In this document: positions 6,059 to 59,260 of the stretch, one piece after another | Layout: every line of letters starts with the position of its first letter | Numbering within the stretch: the stretch's first letter is position 1 | From: Psychrobacillus sp. INOP01 | GTDB lineage: Bacteria; Bacillota; Bacilli; Bacillales_A; Planococcaceae | NCBI RefSeq assembly: GCF_018140925.1 | Contig: NZ_CP073315.1 | Coordinates: 992,001-1,056,000 of the forward strand | Length of the DNA: 64,000 bases | Direction of reading: 5' to 3' | Notes under the pieces: generated by a model | What the model saw: only the letters and a program-made list of their open reading frames with translations | The model's database searches: none | Told to the model about the DNA's origin: nothing | Made by a program: the position numbers and the translations under genes

Positions 6059-6075
6059 TTATAGTCATTTAAATA

Positions 6076-6427
6076 TGGAGACGGCGGGATTTGAACCCGC
6101 GTCCAGAAACTCTAACACTTAAGCTTCTACGCGTGTATCTTACCTATTTAAAGTTTCGCGTAGCATTATGCCGATAAGCGGGCGTTGTGTACGCTAACTT
6201 GGAAATCTCTTGCAGACAGCTCAAGTGGCACTGCCTACCGTATCCCACTAAAGTTGAGCTTTACCTAGCCACATGGGCGATGGATAGATAAAGCAGATCC
6301 GAGCTTACGCTGCGAATGCTAAGTTGTTGTTTGTTTTGCCTGTTGTTATAAGTTCCGTTTTTACGGAGCCGAGCCTCCGACGCGCAACTCAAGCTCAGAC
6401 TATCCCTGTCGAATCCATAACGTCCCC
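6076..6427 (-). ncRNA. ssrA: Transfer-messenger RNA (tmRNA)
   Basis: 352-nt tmRNA. The 5' end GGGGACG pairs with CGTCTCC at the 3' end (one G-U) followed by discriminator A; CCA is not encoded. The T-arm GGGTTCAAATCCC and the conserved GATTCGACAGGGAT near the 5' end are present. The tag reading frame (6340-6305) encodes GKTNNNLAFAA then TAA, giving a 12-residue degradation tag with the charged Ala. That is shorter than the B. subtilis tag and closer to Listeria or Staphylococcus tags. tmRNA with SmpB rescues stalled ribosomes. Its 3' end abuts the island, so it is the likely attachment site. Confidence 0.97.
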
Positions 6428-10739: not shown

Positions 10740-10860
10740 TTTACTTGCTCCAGCATGGCCTTTACTTGCGTTCATGAAGAGTTTACTTGCCTTCATCTAT
10801 TAGTTACTTGCGCTCACTGATTGTTTACTTGCTCTCAAGTATACTTCACTTGCGAAACAG
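10740..10860. repeat. 21-bp phased array 1 (TTTACTTGC type, six units)
   Basis: TTTACTTGC or a one-base variant starts at 10740, 10761, 10782, 10803, 10824 and 10845, exactly 21 bases apart. The 12-base spacers differ but often carry TCA three bases after the core. The last unit is followed by GAAACAGGAGTTTTATCC, similar to flanks of other arrays. It lies in the 690-base gap between eno and secG. Confidence 0.9.
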
Positions 10861-10995
10861 GAGTTTTATCCATTAAATTTCAGTTCCTATGCGTACAACT
10901 AGTACAGGTGACAACAATGAGTAGAGGATAAAGCTATCCCCATCTAGATCAATCCATTCGTGTCTAGGCGATAAGCTTTGCTAAATCTTCTTGTT

Positions 10996-11217
10996 GGGTA
11001 CTACTCTCATATTTGATTGTAGTGAAAGGTGGCGACTCCGGCGGAGGCCAACAGGATGTTGGTCACGAAGGCGTTGCCACACGATGTGGCGCTCTTAGCC
11101 TGCGCTCCTTTGTAAAAAACTTTTGGGTTCTAGACTTTCACTCTTTTAAGATGATAGCTCATCGCTCACCCCACGGAAAGCGTCCACCTGTAACGAAAAT
11201 CAGCAGTATCATTTATT
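10996..11217. mobile_element. MITE-like GC-rich repeat, copy A (diverged)
   Basis: Shares TTTGATTGTAGTGAAAGGTG-GCGACTCC at the left and GGAAAGCGTCCACCTG with AAAATCAGCAGTAT at the right with copies at 25643, 42788 and 59014. The left end is GGTACTACT instead of GAATAATAC and the middle is longer and unrelated, so the copy is degenerate or carries an insertion. Similarity seems to extend left to GATAAGCTTTGCTAAATCTT near 10970. Confidence 0.65.
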
Positions 11218-14907: not shown

Positions 14908-16092
14908 TTACTTATCGTTTAAAGCAGAAACTCCTGGTAAATCCTTGCCTTCCATAAACTCTAAGGAAGCTCCTCCGCCAGTCGAAATATGATCCATCTT
15001 CTCGCCAACATTGAACTTTTCTACTGCCGCTGCAGAGTCGCCGCCTCCGATAATCGTATAACCAGCTGTTTCAGCCATTGCATTCGCTACAGCTTTTGTA
15101 CCTTCTGCAAATGCATCCATTTCGAATACTCCCATAGGTCCATTCCAAATAATTAGCTTACTATTTTTAATAACATTCGAGTATAGCTCTCTTGTTTTTG
15201 GACCAATATCTAATCCCATCCAATCAGAGGGAATTTGATCGATATCTACAACTTTTGTGTTAGCATCCTTCGAAAATTCATCTGCCACTACTACATCAAC
15301 TGGCAAATAGAAAGAAACACCTTTTTCTTTCGCTTTTTCGATGAAGCCTCTTGCAAGTTCCATTTTATCTTCTTCCAGTAGGGAAGTACCAATTTCATGG
15401 CCTTGTGCCTTCGTAAATGTATACGACAAGCCACCACCTATTAAAATGTTGTCTACCTTGTCCAATAAATGATCGATTACACCGATTTTATCTTTTACTT
15501 TTGCTCCACCGATAATGGCAGTAAATGGACGCTCAGGCTCCGCTAATGCTTTTCCTAATACATCTAACTCTTTTTGCATTAATAGCCCTGAAACGGCTGG
15601 AAGTAATTTTGCGATACCTTCTGTTGTCGCATGTGCACGATGCGCAGCACCAAATGCATCATTAACATAGACATCAGCAAGCTTTGCAAAGGACTTTGCT
15701 AGCTCCGCATCATTCTTTTCCTCACCTACATGGAACCGAACGTTTTCTAATAATACGATGTCTCCGTCTTTCATAGCTGAAACTGTATTCTCTACAGCCT
15801 CTCCGATAGATTCCTCTAATTTTTTTACCGGCTTATCCAAAAGTTTTGCTAAATGCTCTCCAACCTTAGTCAAACGTAAATCTTCCTTCACTTCACCTTT
15901 AGGTCGTCCCATATGGCTTGCTAGAATCACTTTCGCACCTTGTTCGATTAAATAATTGATCGTTGGTAGTGCAGCACGAATTCTTGTATCATCCGTGATT
16001 GCTCCATCCTCCATTGGCACGTTGAAGTCTACACGACAAAATACACGTTTTCCTTGTAAAGCTACATCGCTCATTGTTTGTTTTACCTTCAT
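14908..16092 (-). CDS. pgk: Phosphoglycerate kinase
   Basis: 394-residue two-domain kinase producing ATP from 1,3-bisphosphoglycerate. Seen: RVDFNVPM near residue 20, the N-domain HMGRPKG and [24 protein letters not shown], and the C-domain nucleotide loop [12 protein letters not shown] with [14 protein letters not shown]. Full length. A terminator between gap and pgk may reduce transcription from the cggR promoter. Confidence 0.98.
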
Positions 16093-18359: not shown

Positions 18360-18477
18360 GTATTTAAAAAAATTTAATTTCTAAATTAAGGATACAATAG
18401 TATATTCCCAATAGCAAGAATTTGAAACACGAATATGAACAAATTTAATCCTGAAATGCTCCCCATAAATGTTTATG

Positions 18478-18572
18478 TTGCGATTATGCCTTTCTATATA
18501 GCGATTTGCGGCTTTGATATTGCGGTTTAGGAAGTGGATGTTGCGACTGAGCCTCATTAACTTGCGATTACG
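18478..18572. repeat. 21-bp phased array 2 (TTGCGATT type, five units)
   Basis: TTGCGATT or close variants start at 18478, 18499, 18520, 18541 and 18562, exactly 21 bases apart. The last unit reads AACTTGCGATT, joining this type to the ACTTGC type. It is followed by ACGTAAAAACC. It lies between the cggR start and the glutaredoxin-like gene. Confidence 0.85.
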
Positions 18573-21728: not shown

Positions 21729-21868
21729 TGTGTTCACCTCTTCAGTATTTATAGTATTATTGTACCTTTAAATCGATAATACAAAACCTATTATTATTTA
21801 CGGAATAAGGTGATTTTAGTTTCATATTCCTTAAAGATGAAAATCCATTGTAAGAATTTTCCGTTTAG

Positions 21869-21961
21869 CAAGTAAACAACAATAGAAAGCAAGTATCCGG
21901 TAAAAGAGTGCAAGTAAATCTCTCTTTATAGCAAGTAAAGCATCATGTACCGCAAGTAAAT
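21869..21961. repeat. 21-bp phased array 3 (GCAAGTAAA orientation, five units)
   Basis: GCAAGTAAA (reverse of TTTACTTGC) or a one-base variant starts at 21869, 21890, 21911, 21932 and 21953, exactly 21 bases apart. Read on the minus strand the final unit is followed by CGGAAAATTCTTACAATGGA, nearly the same flank as array 4. It lies in the 395-base gap between divergent lemA and the catalase-like gene. Confidence 0.9.
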
Positions 21962-23665: not shown

Positions 23666-23737
23666 TGCCCTCGGCGAGGATCGAACTCACATTCCAAGCT
23701 TCGGAGGCTTGTGTGTTATCCATTACACTACAAGGGC
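23666..23737 (-). tRNA. tRNA-Arg (anticodon CCG)
   Basis: 72-nt cloverleaf. Acceptor GCCCTTG pairs with CGAGGGC (one G-U), the anticodon loop is CTCCGAA with CCG, and the T-loop is in GAGTTCGATCCTC. Discriminator A; CCA not encoded. It reads CGG codons. B. subtilis also has a single tRNA-Arg next to clpP. Confidence 0.95.
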
Positions 23738-35605: not shown

Positions 35606-36235
35606 CTACCTTTTATTCAATTCATTTTTTAGTTGTGCAACAAAAGCATTGATTCGTTCACTTTTCACTCGATAGCTTACAGGATTGACGATCAATCGAG
35701 AGGAGATAGAAACGATTTTTTCAAATTCAACTAAGCCATTTTCCTTAAGCGTCTGTCCAGTGGAAACAATATCGACAATGCGATCTGCAAGACCGATCAT
35801 TGGTGCTAGCTCAATCGAACCATTCAACTCAATAATTTCTACTTGCTCTCCTTTTTCCTTGTAGAAGTTTGTTGCAATTCTCGGATACTTTGTTGCGACA
35901 CGTGGAGCAATCTCATTCATCGTCGTGTTCGGAAGACCGGCAGTTGCTATATAACAATTACTAATATGTAAATCCAATAGCTCATGGACATCACGGTGCT
36001 GCTCCAATAAAACATCCTTCCCCGCTATACCGATATCTGCTACACCATGTTCAACGTATACAGGTACATCCATCGGTTTTGCCAATATGAATTGAATTCG
36101 TTCATCCGGAGCCTCAACGATTAACTTTCTGGAATCACTAATCTCTTTAGGCAAATCAAACCCTGCTTCCACAAATAGTTTATATGCTTCTTCAAAAATA
36201 CGCCCCTTTGGCATTGCAATAGTTAACTCATTCAC
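35606..36235 (-). CDS. hisG: ATP phosphoribosyltransferase catalytic subunit, short form
   Basis: 209-residue HisG of the short class without the C-terminal regulatory domain; it needs HisZ for activity. Seen: [17 protein letters not shown], the PRPP-binding loop [18 protein letters not shown] and GIAGKDVL. Start is GTG at 36235, with GAGGGTGG eight bases upstream inside the hisZ end; GTG at 36247 overlaps that site. Overlaps hisZ by eight bases. Confidence 0.96.
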
Positions 36236-37406
36236 GGAAAAAACCACCCTCAGACACGATAATCACTTCATCGAAAATTTGTTTAAACGCTTCAATATCA
36301 TTAACACTCTCCGCATATTGCAGCGTCACATATTCGGATGCATTTCTTCTAGCTTCCGCTAATACATTTGCTTTAGAAAAAGACCCTTTATCAAATAAAA
36401 GAAGCGTATGCTTCTCATCAACGACAACCTTCGGTAATACTTCTAATAATCGGTCAACACGAATCCCAAATCCTGTAGCTCCTACTTTTTCGTCGAACTG
36501 TTTAAATAACTCATCATATCGTCCACCATTCCCAATGGAGAAACCACTTCCCGCAGCGTGAATTTCAAACAGCATACCAGTGTAATAGCTCATATGACTC
36601 GCTAAAGAAAAATCAAACGATACAATTGAAAAGTCATTCAATTGGAATTCTAGTAATTCTTGAAGTTCCTCAACCTGATCGATCAAATATTGCTGATCGT
36701 CATTAAGAAACTGGCGGAAATCCGTAAATACATTAGAGTCTATTGTATAATCTATTATTTTTATAAGATTTTCTTTTTGTACTTTCAGTAAGTCCATGCT
36801 TTCTAACTTTTGTGAGAAACCTACTAAATTTTTCTCTACTAATAGTTGTCTTAGCATTTCAACTTGCTCTGTGCTATTTGTGTAGTTTGTTAAGAAAGCA
36901 GTTAAAATTTCGGCATGTCCAATAGTAATTCGGAAGCTTTCTACACCTAAAGCCTTCAGTAGTTCTATCGCAGTATAGATTATTTCACTGTCTGCGTATG
37001 GACTAAAATCCCCAACAAGTTCCAGTCCTAGCTGCTCAAACTCTGCAGGTCTTCCGCCTTCTCGTTGTTGAGCACGAAATACATCCGCATAGTACGCTAA
37101 GCGTAATGGATTTTTTTCCTTTAATAACTTGGAAGCTGCTATTCTAGCAATCGGTGTCGTCATATCAGGACGTAAAACAAGCATTTCACCTTGATTGTCT
37201 ACTAGTTTAAACAAGGACGACTCATCAATAGCGGAAGCTTTACCGATTGTTTCAAAATACTCCACGGAAGGTGTTTTTATAAAGTCGTACCCTTTTTTTC
37301 GTATAAAATCTCTTGCTGTCGATCGTATATATTCTTTTTGTTCGTTTACTTCTGGAAAAGAATCTCTCATTCCAAGAGGCTTTTCGAACATTTGAATTTT
37401 GCTCAT
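36228..37406 (-). CDS. hisZ: ATP phosphoribosyltransferase regulatory subunit
   Basis: 392-residue histidyl-tRNA-synthetase-like paralogue without an anticodon domain. Motif 2-like [17 protein letters not shown] and [19 protein letters not shown] and a motif 3-like [13 protein letters not shown] are visible. It forms an octamer with short HisG and provides histidine feedback. First gene of the operon; RBS AGGAGTGG. Confidence 0.95.
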
Positions 37407-37527: not shown

Positions 37528-37612
37528 AATCGCAAGTTAGGTGCTCCAAATCGCAAGTTTAACTTCACTAATCGCAATATGAATCGTGTAAATCGCAAGT
37601 TCAACAATTGAT
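37528..37612. repeat. 21-bp phased array 4 (AATCGCAAGTT orientation, four units)
   Basis: AATCGCAA starts at 37528, 37549, 37570 and 37591, exactly 21 bases apart; three of four units extend to AATCGCAAGTT. On the minus strand the last unit is followed by CGGAAAAATCTTAATGGA, nearly the same flank as array 3. It lies between the his promoter and the yvoF terminator. Confidence 0.88.
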
Positions 37613-37700: not shown

Positions 37701-38210
37701 TTATTTTTTATTTCGTTCTAGCATTTGTTCCTTCGTATAAATAATACGCATTGGATTTCCTCCAACAAAGCATCCTTCTGGAACATCTGCATTGACGAGT
37801 GTTGCTGCAGAAACAATGGCATCATTCCCAATCGTAATACCTGGCAAAATTGTGGTATTTGCCCCGATCAATACTCGATTACCAATAATGACATCTCCAA
37901 TACGATATTCGTCGATCAAATATTCATGCGCAAGAATCGTCGTGTTATAGCCAATAATGGAATTATCGCCGACTTTAATACGCTCTGGGAACATGACATC
38001 AACCATTACCATTAAAGCAAAAGACGTTTCTTTTCCAACTTCCATTTTCAGAAAAACACGATAGAAAAAATTTTTCCAACTTAAAAAAGGGGAATATCTA
38101 GCGGCTTGAATAAAGATAAAGTTCTTCATAACTTTCCAAAATGGAACGGTATCATACACATGCCAAAGCGAGTTTGCCCCTTTTACAGGATATCGTTCTG
38201 TTCTCCTCAT
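37701..38210 (-). CDS. yvoF: Hexapeptide-repeat acyltransferase (YvoF-like)
   Basis: 169-residue left-handed beta-helix acyltransferase. Hexapeptide turns are visible at about 80-150: IKVGDNSIIGYNTTIL, IGDVIIGNRVLIGANTTILPG and IGNDAIVSAATLVNADVPEG. The acceptor is unknown, probably a sugar or maltose/galactoside-type substrate by family. It overlaps ppaX by four bases (ATGA). Confidence 0.88.
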   Translation of the reverse strand: MRRTERYPVKGANSLWHVYDTVPFWKVMKNFIFIQAARYSPFLSWKNFFYRVFLKMEVGKETSFALMVMVDVMFPERIKVGDNSIIGYNTTILAHEYLIDEYRIGDVIIGNRVLIGANTTILPGITIGNDAIVSAATLVNADVPEGCFVGGNPMRIIYTKEQMLERNKK

Positions 38211-41699: not shown

Positions 41700-42251
41700 A
41701 TGAAAATTATGCTTGATGCAGGCCATGGACCTAACACTATCGGCAAAAGGACACCAGATGGAAAAATGAAAGAGTTTGAATTTAATGAAGCGGTTGCTCA
41801 ACTTGTAAAAAATGAACTAACTGGTTTTGATCTAATTGTTATGAATTGTCATGACAGGGAGAGAGATGTTCCTCTTAAGGAAAGAACAACATTAGCTAAC
41901 AAAATGAGAGTTGACGCATTTATCTCTCTCCATGCCAATGCGTATGGTACAACGTGGAATAATACTAGTGGAATCGAAACCTTTACTTATACAAAACCTT
42001 CCGAGCAATCTGTTATTCTCGCAACGCTTATCCAAAACTCTCTATGCTCTATTACGGGAAGATGGAATCGAGGAGTGAAGAAGGCTGATTTTTCAGTTGT
42101 TCGAGACACAAGGATGCCAGCTGTGCTAGTAGAATGTGGATTTATGACGAACAAACACGAAGCAATTTTATTGCAATCAACAGAGTACAGAATGCGCTGC
42201 GCGAAAGCCATCTCTTTTGCAATTCTATGTTGGATCCAGCAAAAGCGGTGA
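41700..42251 (+). CDS. N-acetylmuramoyl-L-alanine amidase (Amidase_3)
   Basis: 183-residue zinc amidase consisting of the catalytic domain only. Zn ligands: His8 in LDAGHG, a Glu in the MKEFEFNEAV helix and His in ISLHANA; the catalytic Glu lies in VLVECGF. It cleaves the amide between muramic acid and the stem peptide. No signal peptide or cell-wall binding domain is seen, so it may act after lysis, in the mother cell or as a phage-type remnant. RBS AAAGGAGG. Divergent from hprK. Confidence 0.88.
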   Translation: MKIMLDAGHGPNTIGKRTPDGKMKEFEFNEAVAQLVKNELTGFDLIVMNCHDRERDVPLKERTTLANKMRVDAFISLHANAYGTTWNNTSGIETFTYTKPSEQSVILATLIQNSLCSITGRWNRGVKKADFSVVRDTRMPAVLVECGFMTNKHEAILLQSTEYRMRCAKAISFAILCWIQQKR

Positions 42252-42321
42252 TCCAGAAAAACTTTAAAATAGCATATTATAACAAAAACCAAGCAAAAAA
42301 AGGCTCGGTCCTTTAGGCTTA

Positions 42322-42370
42322 ACACCTGTTTCTACCGTTTTTAATAAGCTTTGAACAGACTTCTTACAGA
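42322..42370 (+). repeat. Half copy of the AACCTGTTTC element
   Basis: ACACCTGTTTCTACCG, AAGCTTTGAACAGACTTCTTA parallels the left arm of the element at 58470-58640 (CTGTTTC, AAGCT, ACAGACTT). No right arm is seen. It follows the amidase gene. The rest of 42371-42508 holds nothing recognisable. Confidence 0.5.
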
Positions 42371-42508
42371 TAACAAATCCATAGCCTCTACTTTTCATGC
42401 AATCCATTGGATTCCATATCATTCAAAGAGCCAGGAAGAACAATGATTATGTAAACTCAAGAAGGATATACATCCTTATCTTTTATGAATAAGTGAATCT
42501 TATTTATC

Positions 42509-42632
42509 TTTACTTGCTCTCATCTATTGTTTACTTGCCTCCACTTGTTACTTACTTGCAGTCGTGAATGATTTACTTGCTCTTAGTCTACATTTACTTG
42601 CGGTTTTTTACCTTTTACTTGCGGAACGGAAA
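42509..42632. repeat. 21-bp phased array 5 (TTTACTTGC type, six units)
   Basis: TTTACTTGC (once CTTACTTGC) starts at 42509, 42530, 42551, 42572, 42593 and 42614, exactly 21 bases apart. Spacers differ. The last unit is followed by GGAACGGAAAATTTCGCC, similar to flanks of arrays 1, 3 and 4. It lies between convergent amidase and yvlB genes. Confidence 0.92.
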
Positions 42633-42787
42633 ATTTCGCCAAAGTTCTTTATTGATTCACAGCCCAAATGTGTAGAATCGAATTACTATTAGTTCTTTTC
42701 TACTCAATAGGTCAACTATTATAGATTGAGTCTGTAGATGATTCTGCATATTCATCGTGTTTATCATAAAAGCTTATTTTACTTTAT

Positions 42788-42951
42788 GAATAATAACTAC
42801 TTACTTAATTGATTGATTGATTGTAGCGGAAGGCGGCGACTCCTGCGAGATTAGCTTGAGCTGAAGACCCCGCAGGAGCTAGCGACGAGGAGGCTGAAGC
42901 CAAGCCAGCGGAAAGCGTCCGCCTGAAGCGGAAATCAAAGCGGTATTATTC
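42788..42951. mobile_element. MITE-like GC-rich repeat, copy C
   Basis: Ends GAATAATAACT (42788) and GTATTATTC (42943-42951) are near-perfect inverted repeats. Inside, GGAAGGCGGCGACTCCTGCG pairs partly with CCGCAGGAG and with GGAAAGCGTCCGCCTGAAG. GAAATCAA precedes the right end. It is the clearest of the four copies; no gene lies within. GATTGATTGATTG near 42811 is a small tandem expansion. Confidence 0.8.
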
Positions 42952-43017
42952 ATTTGTTTAATTATCAGGAACTAGTTGTTCATGGTACATTCTTATATAC
43001 TTTTTATTCTTCAAAAT

Positions 43018-43054
43018 AAAAAAGTGGAGGGGATAATATCCCGCTCCACTTTTT
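43018..43054 (-). terminator. Terminator after yvlB
   Basis: AAAAGTGGAG and CTCCACTTTT close the stem, with six U residues after it on the minus strand. Confidence 0.85.
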
Positions 43055-44156
43055 ATTCTCCTTCTACTGTATAACGGACAACAACTGATCCTGTTTTTGC
43101 ATCACCGTGTACTCGTAGAGGTGCAGCTTCTGAATCCACTATTTTCGTGAACCCTACTTTTTTGTTTAACAGCTGCTCAGATTGGTTTAGGTGGGTAACA
43201 TCAGCCAATTGAACATCTATTTTACCAATTTGGGAAGTAGCCTCCCCTTTTATCGATACATCCTTTGGAATATACAGTTCAACTGTTCCAGCCACCGCTG
43301 TGCCTTCTATTTTACGAGCGTCTTTATCTTTAGTTGTTAAAATAACATGTCCGCTCACCGATGAACCTTCTATTTCTTTGAGCTTACCATCTACATAAAT
43401 ACGACCATTCATCGTCTCTACTTCAATCGTTTCTCCTTCAACACGTTGAACCTGAACCGATCCATTAACCGTTTCTATATCAGCTCTTTCAAACTTCAAT
43501 TCATCTAATTCTACTTTTCCATTAGTTGTTTTAATTCTAAATGAGTTTGCCTCTAAATTTTTAGCTGAGAACTCACCATTGAACAAACGGACAGAAATAT
43601 TATTATATTCTTTGTTTGGAACATATAACGTTACTTGTACCGAAGTAGTTTTCATATCGCTATACACACGTAATTTGTTTCCTTCTGTTGTGAAAATAAA
43701 CTCTTCACGGAAACGTTTCTTCGCTTCCTCTTCAGTTGAATTTTTAAAGGATTTCACTTTAACAGTAGCACGTGCATGCTGTTCTTCCGTGGGTTGAATT
43801 TCAACTTTACCATTCGCAATATTAATAGAAATATCCGTCAAATCTACATCCTCTTTAACGAATTGTTCTTCAAAAACAACTGGTTCTCCAAATGGCATAT
43901 CAAAATCCTTCATTTTGTCCACAGTTCCTTGCATAAACTGCATAAATCGTTCACCCATTACCGTGAAATCGCGCTTCAAATCTTCCACAAAATCGGTATT
44001 TTTGTTTTGTGACTTTGTATATTCTTTCTCCTCAGGTATAAACTGTGTGGCAGGTGTTGTTTGTTTTCCAAGCTCTTCAAGTAATGCCAATGCTTCTTGC
44101 GCAGTAATCGTGCCATTTTCAACCATATCTAAAATACGTTTTCGTTCTTCTTGCAT
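43053..44156 (-). CDS. yvlB: DUF4097 adhesin-like protein (YvlB-like)
   Basis: 367-residue protein. A short N-terminal SHOCT-like helix pair (MQEERKRILDMVENGTITAQEALALLEEL) is followed by a beta-solenoid DUF4097 region (about 120-355) of repeats such as IRLFNGEFSAKNLEANSFRI and VETMNGRIYVDG. No signal peptide. B. subtilis yvlB belongs to the LiaR- and sigma-W-linked yvlABCD locus; here it stands without yvlA, C or D. ATG at 44156 has GAGGAGG upstream. Confidence 0.88.
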   Translation of the reverse strand: MQEERKRILDMVENGTITAQEALALLEELGKQTTPATQFIPEEKEYTKSQNKNTDFVEDLKRDFTVMGERFMQFMQGTVDKMKDFDMPFGEPVVFEEQFVKEDVDLTDISINIANGKVEIQPTEEQHARATVKVKSFKNSTEEEAKKRFREEFIFTTEGNKLRVYSDMKTTSVQVTLYVPNKEYNNISVRLFNGEFSAKNLEANSFRIKTTNGKVELDELKFERADIETVNGSVQVQRVEGETIEVETMNGRIYVDGKLKEIEGSSVSGHVILTTKDKDARKIEGTAVAGTVELYIPKDVSIKGEATSQIGKIDVQLADVTHLNQSEQLLNKKVGFTKIVDSEAAPLRVHGDAKTGSVVVRYTVEGE

Positions 44157-53194: not shown

Positions 53195-53332
53195 ATAAAA
53201 TAGATACAATATAAAAACCGCTTAGATGTGCAACCATCTAAGCGGCAAAATAGAATGATTCCCTGCAAGGGGAATGGCACGACAGACAAAAGTAATCCAA
53301 CCGAGCGCTAACTCATAGGTGGATTACTTTTT
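53195..53332 (+). ncRNA. Type I antitoxin RNA (RatA/SR4-like)
   Basis: About 138-nt predicted RNA from the promoter at 53160. It holds a strong hairpin (CCGCTTAGATG with CATCTAAGCGG), a small stem (TTCCC/GGGAA) and ends in AGTAATCC/GGATTACT followed by TTTTT. Its 3' end runs antisense to the last codons and 3' UTR of the holin-like toxin gene, the arrangement of txpA/ratA and bsrG/SR4 in B. subtilis. Confidence 0.75.
53287..53332. terminator. Shared terminator of toxin and antitoxin RNAs
   Basis: AGTAATCC (53291-53298) and GGATTACT (53321-53328) with TTTTT on the plus strand and TTTTG on the minus strand; it can end both transcripts and forms their overlap. Confidence 0.8.
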
Positions 53333-53419
53333 CCGTGTCATTGAAAAGCTAAGCGTAATAAGAGCTACAAGTAGCGAAGAAAAACTAATCATTATTACAA
53401 GCGATTCGAAAACAGTCAA
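53324..53419 (-). CDS. Putative holin-like type I toxin (31 residues)
   Basis: Peptide beginning MTVFESLVIMISFSSLL, with a single membrane helix (about 6-26) and a basic end MTRKK. This matches the putative holin-like toxin family (BsrE/BsrH/BsrG group), including the MTVFE start. Start is TTG at 53419 behind AAAGGGGGTG. The 5' UTR has a hairpin (CTTTCTGTC/GACAGAAAG) touching the ribosome site. A -10 TATAAT lies at 53514-53509 on the minus strand. Expression would depolarise or disturb the membrane; the antisense RNA should block it. Confidence 0.82.
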   Translation of the reverse strand: MTVFESLVIMISFSSLLVALITLSFSMTRKK

Positions 53420-53608
53420 AAGCAACACCCCCTTTCTGTCTATAATTTAGTGACAGAAAGAATAAAAAAAGTGCCAACCACCCATGAGTTTATCAATCTA
53501 TTTCCTCTATTATACCACACACACGTTCTATAACGTCAGAATTAACAGACATATTAGTAATTAAAATTCCCCATTATCAGCAAGCATATCCTTTAAGTAC
53601 ATTCTTAT

Positions 53609-59013: not shown

Positions 59014-59166
59014 GGAGTACTACTCATTTAGTTGATTGAAGTGTAATGTGGCGACTCCAGCGGGAACAGCACGAGCTGAAAGCCCCGCAGGAACGAGAGT
59101 GACGAGGAGATTGAAACCGCGCCCGCGGAAAGCGTCTGCATGGAACGGAAATCAGTGGTATTATTC
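59014..59166. mobile_element. MITE-like GC-rich repeat, copy D
   Basis: GGAGTACTACT left end, GTTGATTGAAGTG, GGCGACTCCAGCGGGAACAG, AGCTGAAAGCCCCGCAGG, CGGAAAGCGTCTGCATGG and right end GTATTATTC (59158-59166). Shares a further 25 bases to the left (GATAGGATGTGC, ATCTTCTTG) with copies A and B. Confidence 0.75.
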
Positions 59167-59225
59167 ATTCTTTAAAGTCCCGTGAATTCAGTGTTTACGG
59201 GACATTTTTATATACTTATTCTTTT

Positions 59226-59260
59226 AAAAAAGCACACCACTCATGTCAAAGTGGTGTGCT
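59226..59260 (-). terminator. Terminator after mccB
   Basis: GCACACCACT and AGTGGTGTGC form a ten-base stem with six U residues on the minus strand. A second hairpin GTCCCGT/ACGGGAC with ATTTTTA lies at 59178-59208 on the plus strand. Confidence 0.9.

Follow-up and report, generated by a model that had tools for sequence, protein, structure and literature searches.

Phased 21-bp arrays of short cores at gene ends in Psychrobacillus: candidate binding sites for a cooperative protein

Background

Here we report that the chromosomes of Psychrobacillus, a genus of soil bacteria, carry dispersed arrays in which a short core recurs at a step of 21 bp. The cores are far better conserved than the spacers that separate them and change more slowly at orthologous loci than a neutral simulation predicts, several core sequences are found at the same step, and the arrays lie mostly at the ends of genes. 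The reading that we tentatively favour is that these arrays are phased sites kept by the host for a cooperatively binding protein, perhaps marking the ends of transcription units. Its parts differ in standing: judged from the sequence, the arrays are probably phased protein-binding arrays, selection on the host to keep them is somewhat on the likely side, and a boundary function is possible, if doubtful. The starting point was a window of 64,000 nucleotides, the whole stretch of DNA analysed, taken from a chromosome of 4.30 Mb (genome G000), for which an original prediction had described three such arrays.

Results

Arrays in the window

The arrays of the window and the elements directly attached to them are as follows:

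42509-42622, plus strand: class A array, six units of TTTACTTGC plus a 12-bp spacer, all steps 21
42623-42650, plus strand: tail of the 42509 array (GGAACGGAAAATTTC...), following the last core, a partly conserved class A feature
42380-42760, plus strand: longer dispersed sequence around the 42509 array, with paralogues in G000, G004 and G008 (P. psychrodurans)
10740-10853, plus strand: class A array, six units, all steps 21
10854-10880, plus strand: tail of the 10740 array (GAAACAGGAGTTTTATCCATT)
21868-21960, minus strand: class A array, five units, all steps 21, between divergent genes
21850-21867, minus strand: tail of the 21868 array (TAAACGGAAAATTCTTAC on the minus strand)
37528-37599, minus strand: class C array with core CTTGCGATT, four units (one imperfect), step 21
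18477-18569, plus strand: weak candidate for a class C array in decay, with five units in phase, of which four are imperfect

As originally described, three arrays repeat ACTTGC at exactly 21 bp, every within-array step being 21, and some details of that description needed amending. The arrays at 42509 and 10740 do have six cores each, but TTTACTTGC, said to recur six times in both, has five exact copies in the former (the remaining core is CTTACTTGC) and four in the latter (the others are GTTACTTGC and TTCACTTGC). The reverse array has the five cores claimed for it, four of them exact and the fifth GATACTTGC, and lies one base away from the position first given, 21869-21961. ACTTGC is intact in all 17 class A units of the window, with a variable leading TTT. 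The spacers, which had been called largely unrelated, vary inside every array, yet with some constraint: in G000 and P. psychrodurans position 10 of the unit holds 0.6-0.7 bits and position 12 holds 0.9-1.1, against at most 0.2 in the last seven positions. A further core that had been singled out for scanning, AACTTGCGATT, proved to be that of class C, to which the fourth array of the window, at 37528-37599, belongs.

The 42509 array, which ends in TTTACTTGC-GGAACGGAAAATTT, has a CwlD-like amidase gene on one side and a LiaX/LiaG-like gene behind uvrA on the other; the names of these two genes rest on matches below the curated cut-off. The 10740 array lies 449 bp past the stop codon of eno and antisense to it, the 21868 array has an orthologue in P. 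psychrodurans with six units as against five in the window, and the 37528 array is flanked by hisZ (36228-37406, minus strand) and an acetyltransferase gene (37701-38210, minus strand). Over 35 class A arrays of G000, the genome of the window, the tail has the partially conserved consensus GaAAcGGaA.ATTTttccA. A scan of 42200-43060 for promoters and terminators found nothing above shuffles.

The window has four Rfam matches, none of them on any array. A Bacillaceae-1 RNA (RF01690, 75.7 bits), member of a family of structured Bacillaceae sRNAs without a 21-bp array, lies at 11048-11114 on the minus strand, between eno and the 10740 array. At 53220-53502 (minus strand) there is a match to BsrG (RF01412, 66.9 bits, gathering score 55), which we take to be a type I toxin-antitoxin RNA. 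The tmRNA is found at 6073-6427 and a tRNA gene at 23666-23737, both on the minus strand. A separate dispersed sequence occupies about 42810-43050 and has a relative at 59032-59230.

The step and the contrast between core and spacer

When the gap between two copies of TTACTTGC was left free from 2 to 32, 112 of the 121 steps tallied by hand from the complete match listing of G000 and its sister species G004 were exactly 21 (38/42 and 74/79, respectively, some loci being shared by the two species). The nine remaining steps were 20 (five cases), 22, 16, 38 and 40, and the backward controls for this search gave no match. Variable spacing in other copies, which had been named beforehand as the result that would speak against a kept phase, is thus not what these two genomes contain. 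With the gap fixed, TTACTTGC-N13-TTACTTGC occurs 38 times in the 4.30 Mb of G000 and the backward pattern is absent; elsewhere the backward control matched once in G043 and, at one mismatch, once in G004. A de novo scan that makes no use of the core was applied to 764 kb, made up of the window, with its known arrays, and 35 stretches selected irrespective of arrays. Under a three-unit rule it returned nine places with period 21 (three in the window, and one a simple 7-bp repeat), two places for the other periods between 14 and 41 combined, and five with period 42. Another such scan, five stretches of which had been placed close to known arrays, does not enter this count.

In the logo of 97 units from G000 the letters of TTTACTTGC carry 0.6, 1.2, 2.0, 1.6, 1.8, 1.8, 1.8, 1.3 and 1.9 bits, and the last seven spacer positions at most 0.2. 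Similar contrasts were obtained for P. psychrodurans (116 units), Fictibacillus (120) and classes B (123), C (88) and D (39), with mostly 1.2-2 bits in the core centre and 0-0.4 bits in the far spacer; in class B and in Fictibacillus the conserved part extends several bases past the nine-letter core. Because units were recognised by their core, the core bits are partly built in, and within-genome logos alone prove little.

Coding repeats, for which 21 bp would correspond to seven codons, were considered and rejected, as no core-anchored frame is open throughout. In none of the array sets is an array-wide reading frame open in every array: the best frame is open in 8/17 arrays of G000, 10/23 of P. 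psychrodurans, 27/36 of class B and 7/16 of class C, and Fictibacillus, with 18/19, comes nearest to a coding exception. Folding of five array sequences as RNA gave structures no better than those of shuffles (z from -0.48 to 1.78).

Change at orthologous loci

From partly hand-picked sets 38 pairs of orthologous arrays were aligned, of which the filter kept 33 and dropped five. Over these pairs, which share loci and species and are therefore not independent, 108 of 1278 core positions had changed (8.5%; 61 of 852 within ACTTGC) against 376 of 1425 spacer positions (26.4%), so that the unit is not equally conserved throughout as an ordinary tandem repeat would be. A neutral simulation with the same inclusion rule, in which ascertainment is corrected only roughly and ancestral cores are taken as perfect, leads one to expect about 0.22 for cores as compared with the 0.085 observed, a change about 2.6 times less than predicted. 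Simple tandem duplication does not suffice, as had been argued from the window, since core and phase are kept while the spacers drift; equal conservation of core and spacer, the other outcome named in advance as contrary, was not found.

Individual loci illustrate both the constraint and its limits. All six ACTTGC of the array behind eno are common to G000 and G004, with spacers differing at 12/60 positions, and the 21868 locus has no difference among 24 core letters between G000 and P. psychrodurans. Some orthologous cores are also altered, for instance in P. antarcticus. In G005, a genome lacking exact class A pairs, the 21868 locus holds a worn array with 8/36 core letters off consensus, a by-eye count at a single locus. 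Loss of an exact unit of 21 bp also occurs.

Core classes and unit numbers

The 21-bp step is common to no fewer than seven core classes in Psychrobacillus, and four of these are dispersed. Among 19 species, pairs of class A cores (TTTACTTGC) were found in five (one with just two pairs), of class B (TTTAGTTG) in 11, of class C (CTTGCGATT) in 13 and of class D (TTTATGGGC) in five, and the backward controls for all four were zero throughout. The three other classes were encountered in the genome stretches examined: class E (AATCGATCRATC) as one array in G005, class F (AAGTGTTGCG and AACCTTGCGGA) behind eno of G001, G012 and G018, and class G (TATTCGACCGAT) as two arrays of G010 (L374, 15280 and 15688). 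Arrays of G005 with cores TTTATGGGCTAT and AATCGATCRATC, step 21 and seemingly unrelated spacers are located at 15863 and 14740 of L383 and at 10999 of L381. To judge from their letters, classes A, B and C look related by a common TTG, class F perhaps belongs with them, and D, E and G do not look related. Class D and E arrays combine near-identical cores with spacers that look unrelated.

Six units (114 bp) make up the commonest span in each class A set examined: 39/77 arrays in P. psychrodurans (14 more span 113 bp), 11/36 in G000, 10/21 in G004, 8/28 in P. antarcticus (G007) and 13/19 in Fictibacillus, where the six-unit arrays have quite different spacers and another tail. Five units are present in 22/37 class B arrays, and class C (27 arrays) and class D (11) have three to six. 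Several contigs of G009 contain TTTAGTTGCTCTCATGCTGAT-TTTAGTTG pairs with similar spacers, unlike the class B arrays of the same genome; these are perhaps a separate dispersed repeat.

Position relative to genes, terminators and oriC

The genomic context was tabulated for 132 clusters from four Psychrobacillus sets and one Fictibacillus set, with genes defined by longest-ORF calls. The intergenic bias and the position at gene ends, both of which had been put forward for checking, are evident: only four clusters were scored inside ORFs, and the other 128 lie between convergent genes (49), antisense (47), sense (23) or between divergent genes (9), with the tail side towards a gene 3' end in 96. 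The corresponding p-values (0.006 for antisense versus sense, 9e-8 for convergent versus divergent) are both too small, because orthologous loci in several species were counted repeatedly. P. antarcticus is without the antisense excess (eight sense, five antisense), and the 21868 array, situated between divergent genes, is an exception to the gene-end rule. Intrinsic terminators were sought at the 150 gene ends that have an array ahead of them at no more than 500 bp: in 83 cases one lies after the stop codon and before the array, in 11 the array comes first and the terminator only after it, and in 56 none was found, these counts covering array-bearing gene ends alone.

The locus of eno allowed the same place to be followed through the genus, three of the 19 species being left out for want of a usable locus. 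An array lies within 1.5 kb behind eno in nine of the 16 others and belongs to one of three classes: A in two species (antisense), B in four (sense, one of them about 1 kb away) and F in three (sense). In the remaining seven species none of the cores tried was found within 1.5 kb.

With regard to replication, a hand count of clusters gave 24 pointing towards oriC and 11 away in G000, and 22 towards and 10 away in G004, where oriC was placed by collinearity; convergent sites alone, in two species with common loci, gave 16 towards and 6 away. Replication polarity was rejected as the main orientation rule, because the lean is mostly explained by gene direction, and the nucleoid or segregation role that had been suggested is not established. 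In G000 a Bac_DnaA match (2.5e-81) at 2144012 was taken as dnaA/oriC; a weaker second match is at 635333.

Dispersal and turnover

Using the 381 bp of 42380-42760 as a query, we found paralogues in G000, in G004 and at many places in P. psychrodurans, generally with some 70-80% identity, along either parts or the greater portion of the query. By eye, the order of the spacers is the same in paralogous arrays and this, together with the shared flanks, indicates that whole arrays are copied. Whole arrays also occur in tandem (L045, L127 and L236). At 11114-13072 of L045 (about 2.9336-2.9356 Mb of G000), two tandem class A array pairs flank a gene for 341 amino acids that reads like a NERD-like gene; it is not the partner of the arrays, because P. 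psychrodurans has arrays at that place (L076) without the gene. Within some arrays, such as those of G015 and G012, the spacers are related to each other.

Turnover between sister species is fast. In the stretches compared, an orthologous region of G004 was found for 23 of the 36 arrays of G000 (four of the 23 being one region), and nine of these regions gave a pair judged alignable; the other 13 arrays have no orthologue in the G004 stretches compared, which is not to be read as absence. Because turnover is this fast, no single array looks essential. None of the compared loci offered a clean empty site, and leader and tail are loosely inverted in some copies, as seen by eye. The dispersal with flanks and spacer order, the partly conserved tail and the several core classes are all features beyond those originally described.

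Occurrence outside the genus

In the species collection the exact three-core class A pattern was present in 112 stretches, mostly from Psychrobacillus, Fictibacillus and Ureibacillus, and otherwise from single or few genomes of Planococcus, Kurthia, Neobacillus, Metabacillus, Bacillus, Aquibacillus and Peribacillus, besides scattered unrelated records. We inspected 30 of these loci, 21 from Bacillales and nine from others. Arrays of at least three units were seen in 20 of the 21 Bacillales loci, the exception being Aquibacillus, and in two of the nine others, namely Francisella (with identical spacers) and a Chitinophagaceae MAG. The arrays of Kurthia and Neobacillus niacini are plain tandem repeats, since their spacers are near-identical. 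No period-21 array was found in 365 kb from 20 stretches, drawn from 18 further genera of the family and from two genomes belonging to the class, two of these stretches being as short as 1.2 and 4 kb. Occurrence over the genera of Bacillales is patchy. Other cores at step 21 were observed in Fictibacillus terranigra (GTGAGTAA) and in Ureibacillus acetophenoni (TGGCGAATA and CGCAAATA), the loci of these other-core arrays being L102 312, L139 1080, L070 204 and L177 4645. In G032, from another genus, 80 pair matches were set aside because they look, from their letters, like coding repeats.

A blastn search with one class A array found no match in 72,556 plasmid records and none in phages. Viral contigs yielded 18 exact three-core matches (nine of class A, nine of class B, none of class C), which by eye are mostly ordinary repeats with conserved spacers, many of them in open frames. 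A viral or plasmid origin was rejected on the blastn results for this one class A array and on the ordinary look of most of the viral matches.

Discussion

Cooperative phased binding, as first proposed, remains the simplest explanation of the arrays, although we infer it from their layout. Each unit would be one site, of 9-12 bp or slightly more, for a sequence-specific DNA-binding protein acting cooperatively. A step of 21 bp is two helical turns and would line all the sites up along the same side of the DNA, where bound molecules could contact each other and build a directional patch; the remaining spacer letters would serve only as a ruler. Among the roles suggested at the outset, insulation best fits the position data. 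Because the arrays lie mostly behind gene 3' ends and, at those ends with an identified terminator, mostly past it, such a patch would most likely act at the boundary between transcription units, as a roadblock to read-through or as a barrier to the spread of supercoils. That arrays sit at gene ends, and that different cores are used repeatedly at one place, suggests that a patch is useful there. The different core classes would then be sites of different, or diverged, proteins with the same job.

Several observations sit less easily with phased binding. Inheritance, not selection, may account for the step, and 20-base steps and the absence of units are tolerated. A single conserved function is hard to square with seven core classes in one genus, and an antisense rule is contradicted behind eno by classes B and F, which run sense there in contrast to the antisense class A. 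The preference for 3' ends could be mere tolerance of insertions, which leads to a reading of the arrays as selfish dispersed repeats, namely transposase or recombinase sites of MITE- or REP-like non-autonomous elements that copy into gene ends. We consider both this origin and the targeting of gene ends as places where insertions do least harm unlikely, even though the paralogues share flanks and, by eye, spacer order, whole arrays are tandemly repeated, gain and loss between sister species are quick, presence across Bacillales genera is scattered and the tail is partly conserved within a class. Such a repeat does explain spread, patchiness and turnover better than binding sites do, but not the slower change of orthologous cores, since a rate some 2.6 times below neutral is not expected of dead element copies. 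Nor was a target-site duplication or a clean inverted end established, three core classes stand behind the single gene eno, and none of the 10 named genes of the window is a transposase. Both readings may be true, if a mobile repeat had its sites put to use by the host.

Passive minisatellites, in which an ancient 21-bp duplication would persist and the core would seem conserved because only good-core arrays are recognised, would account for the related spacers of some arrays (G015 and G012), for the near-identical ones in Kurthia and Neobacillus niacini and for exact loss of 21-bp units. We disfavour them as improbable, given the simulated 0.22 against the observed 0.085 for cores under the same rule, a core-free scan that finds period 21 almost alone, and class D and E arrays whose spacers look unrelated between near-identical cores. 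A more specific possibility starts from plasmid-origin iterons and centromeres such as parC, which consist of a few cooperatively bound direct repeats at about two-turn spacing and have a rep or par gene and a DnaA box as neighbours. Our arrays are likewise phased direct repeats within 17-22 bp, with 112 of 121 steps at 21; cooperative binding, known there, is supposed here. As chromosomal Rep or partition sites of plasmids, for example incompatibility decoys, they would have classes that mirror plasmid families, and the 21-bp step, the direct repeats and the number of about six units resemble iteron origins by eye; some tails also contain a DnaA-box-like word, TTTTCCACA or TTATCCAt, noticed by eye and without a statistic. 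We nevertheless rate this reading as very improbable: the arrays are chromosomal and number dozens in each genome, where they chiefly occupy gene ends, none of the 10 named genes of the window is a rep or par gene, and the one class A array searched had no blastn match among the plasmid records. At the level of RNA, transcribed arrays might serve as a sponge or as a 3' region to which proteins bind, and a gene 3' end is indeed faced by the tail side in 96/128 clusters. This seems to us scarcely credible, as the terminator, where found, mostly precedes the array (83 versus 11, with none found at 56/150), the five sequences folded have no stable structure, the window arrays have no Rfam match, and a fixed two-turn step is without evident use in RNA. 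Indeed, the RNA and coding readings are both unsupported, since neither needs such a step and neither finds support in the data.

Returning to phased protein-binding sites, we compared the arrays with the known repeat systems nearest to them. The REP/BIME elements of enteric bacteria are dispersed intergenic palindromes that turn over quickly, lie mostly at the 3' ends of genes and where two genes converge, and are associated with a RAYT transposase or with binding of gyrase or IHF. The arrays resemble them in being multi-copy, intergenic, placed at gene 3' ends and quickly turned over; however, REPs are palindromes without a helical step, whereas the arrays are made of direct cores at 21 bp, several of them unrelated, and none of the five array sequences folded has the stem-loop of a REP. 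MITEs are short dispersed intergenic sequences with terminal inverted repeats and target-site duplications, and the arrays too are short, dispersed, intergenic and copied with their flanks, as in the paralogues of 42380-42760 in G000, G004 and G008, but their cores appear constrained at orthologous loci. With CRISPR, which has repeats of 21-40 bp, spacers of similar length and cas genes, the arrays have in common a constant word and differing spacers; the whole array unit is 21 bp, too little of it (about 9-12 bp) is constant, and by eye the spacers keep their order between paralogous loci. That no named repeat class has these features, as originally remarked, agrees with a survey of the literature at the level of abstracts, in which no named class describing such arrays appeared among the papers listed.

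Conclusion

No named class tested or known to us fits both the geometry and the interchangeable cores, and we therefore call these arrays a new class. The claim of novelty would weaken if a protein of the Rep, partition or REP type were found to be the one that binds them. It is conceivable, though on the sequence evidence we would not expect it, that they represent a genome-wide boundary system in Bacillales, in which different, quickly diverging proteins would form one-faced filaments on phased arrays, the core being swapped between species while the geometry of 21 bp and some five to six sites stays constant, as does the place behind genes and terminators. A repeat class defined by geometry and not by sequence would be unusual in bacteria. 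If bound as proposed, the arrays would be a Gram-positive counterpart of the REP/BIME boundaries of enteric bacteria, and the switches of core among close species would provide a natural series of co-change between a protein and its site.
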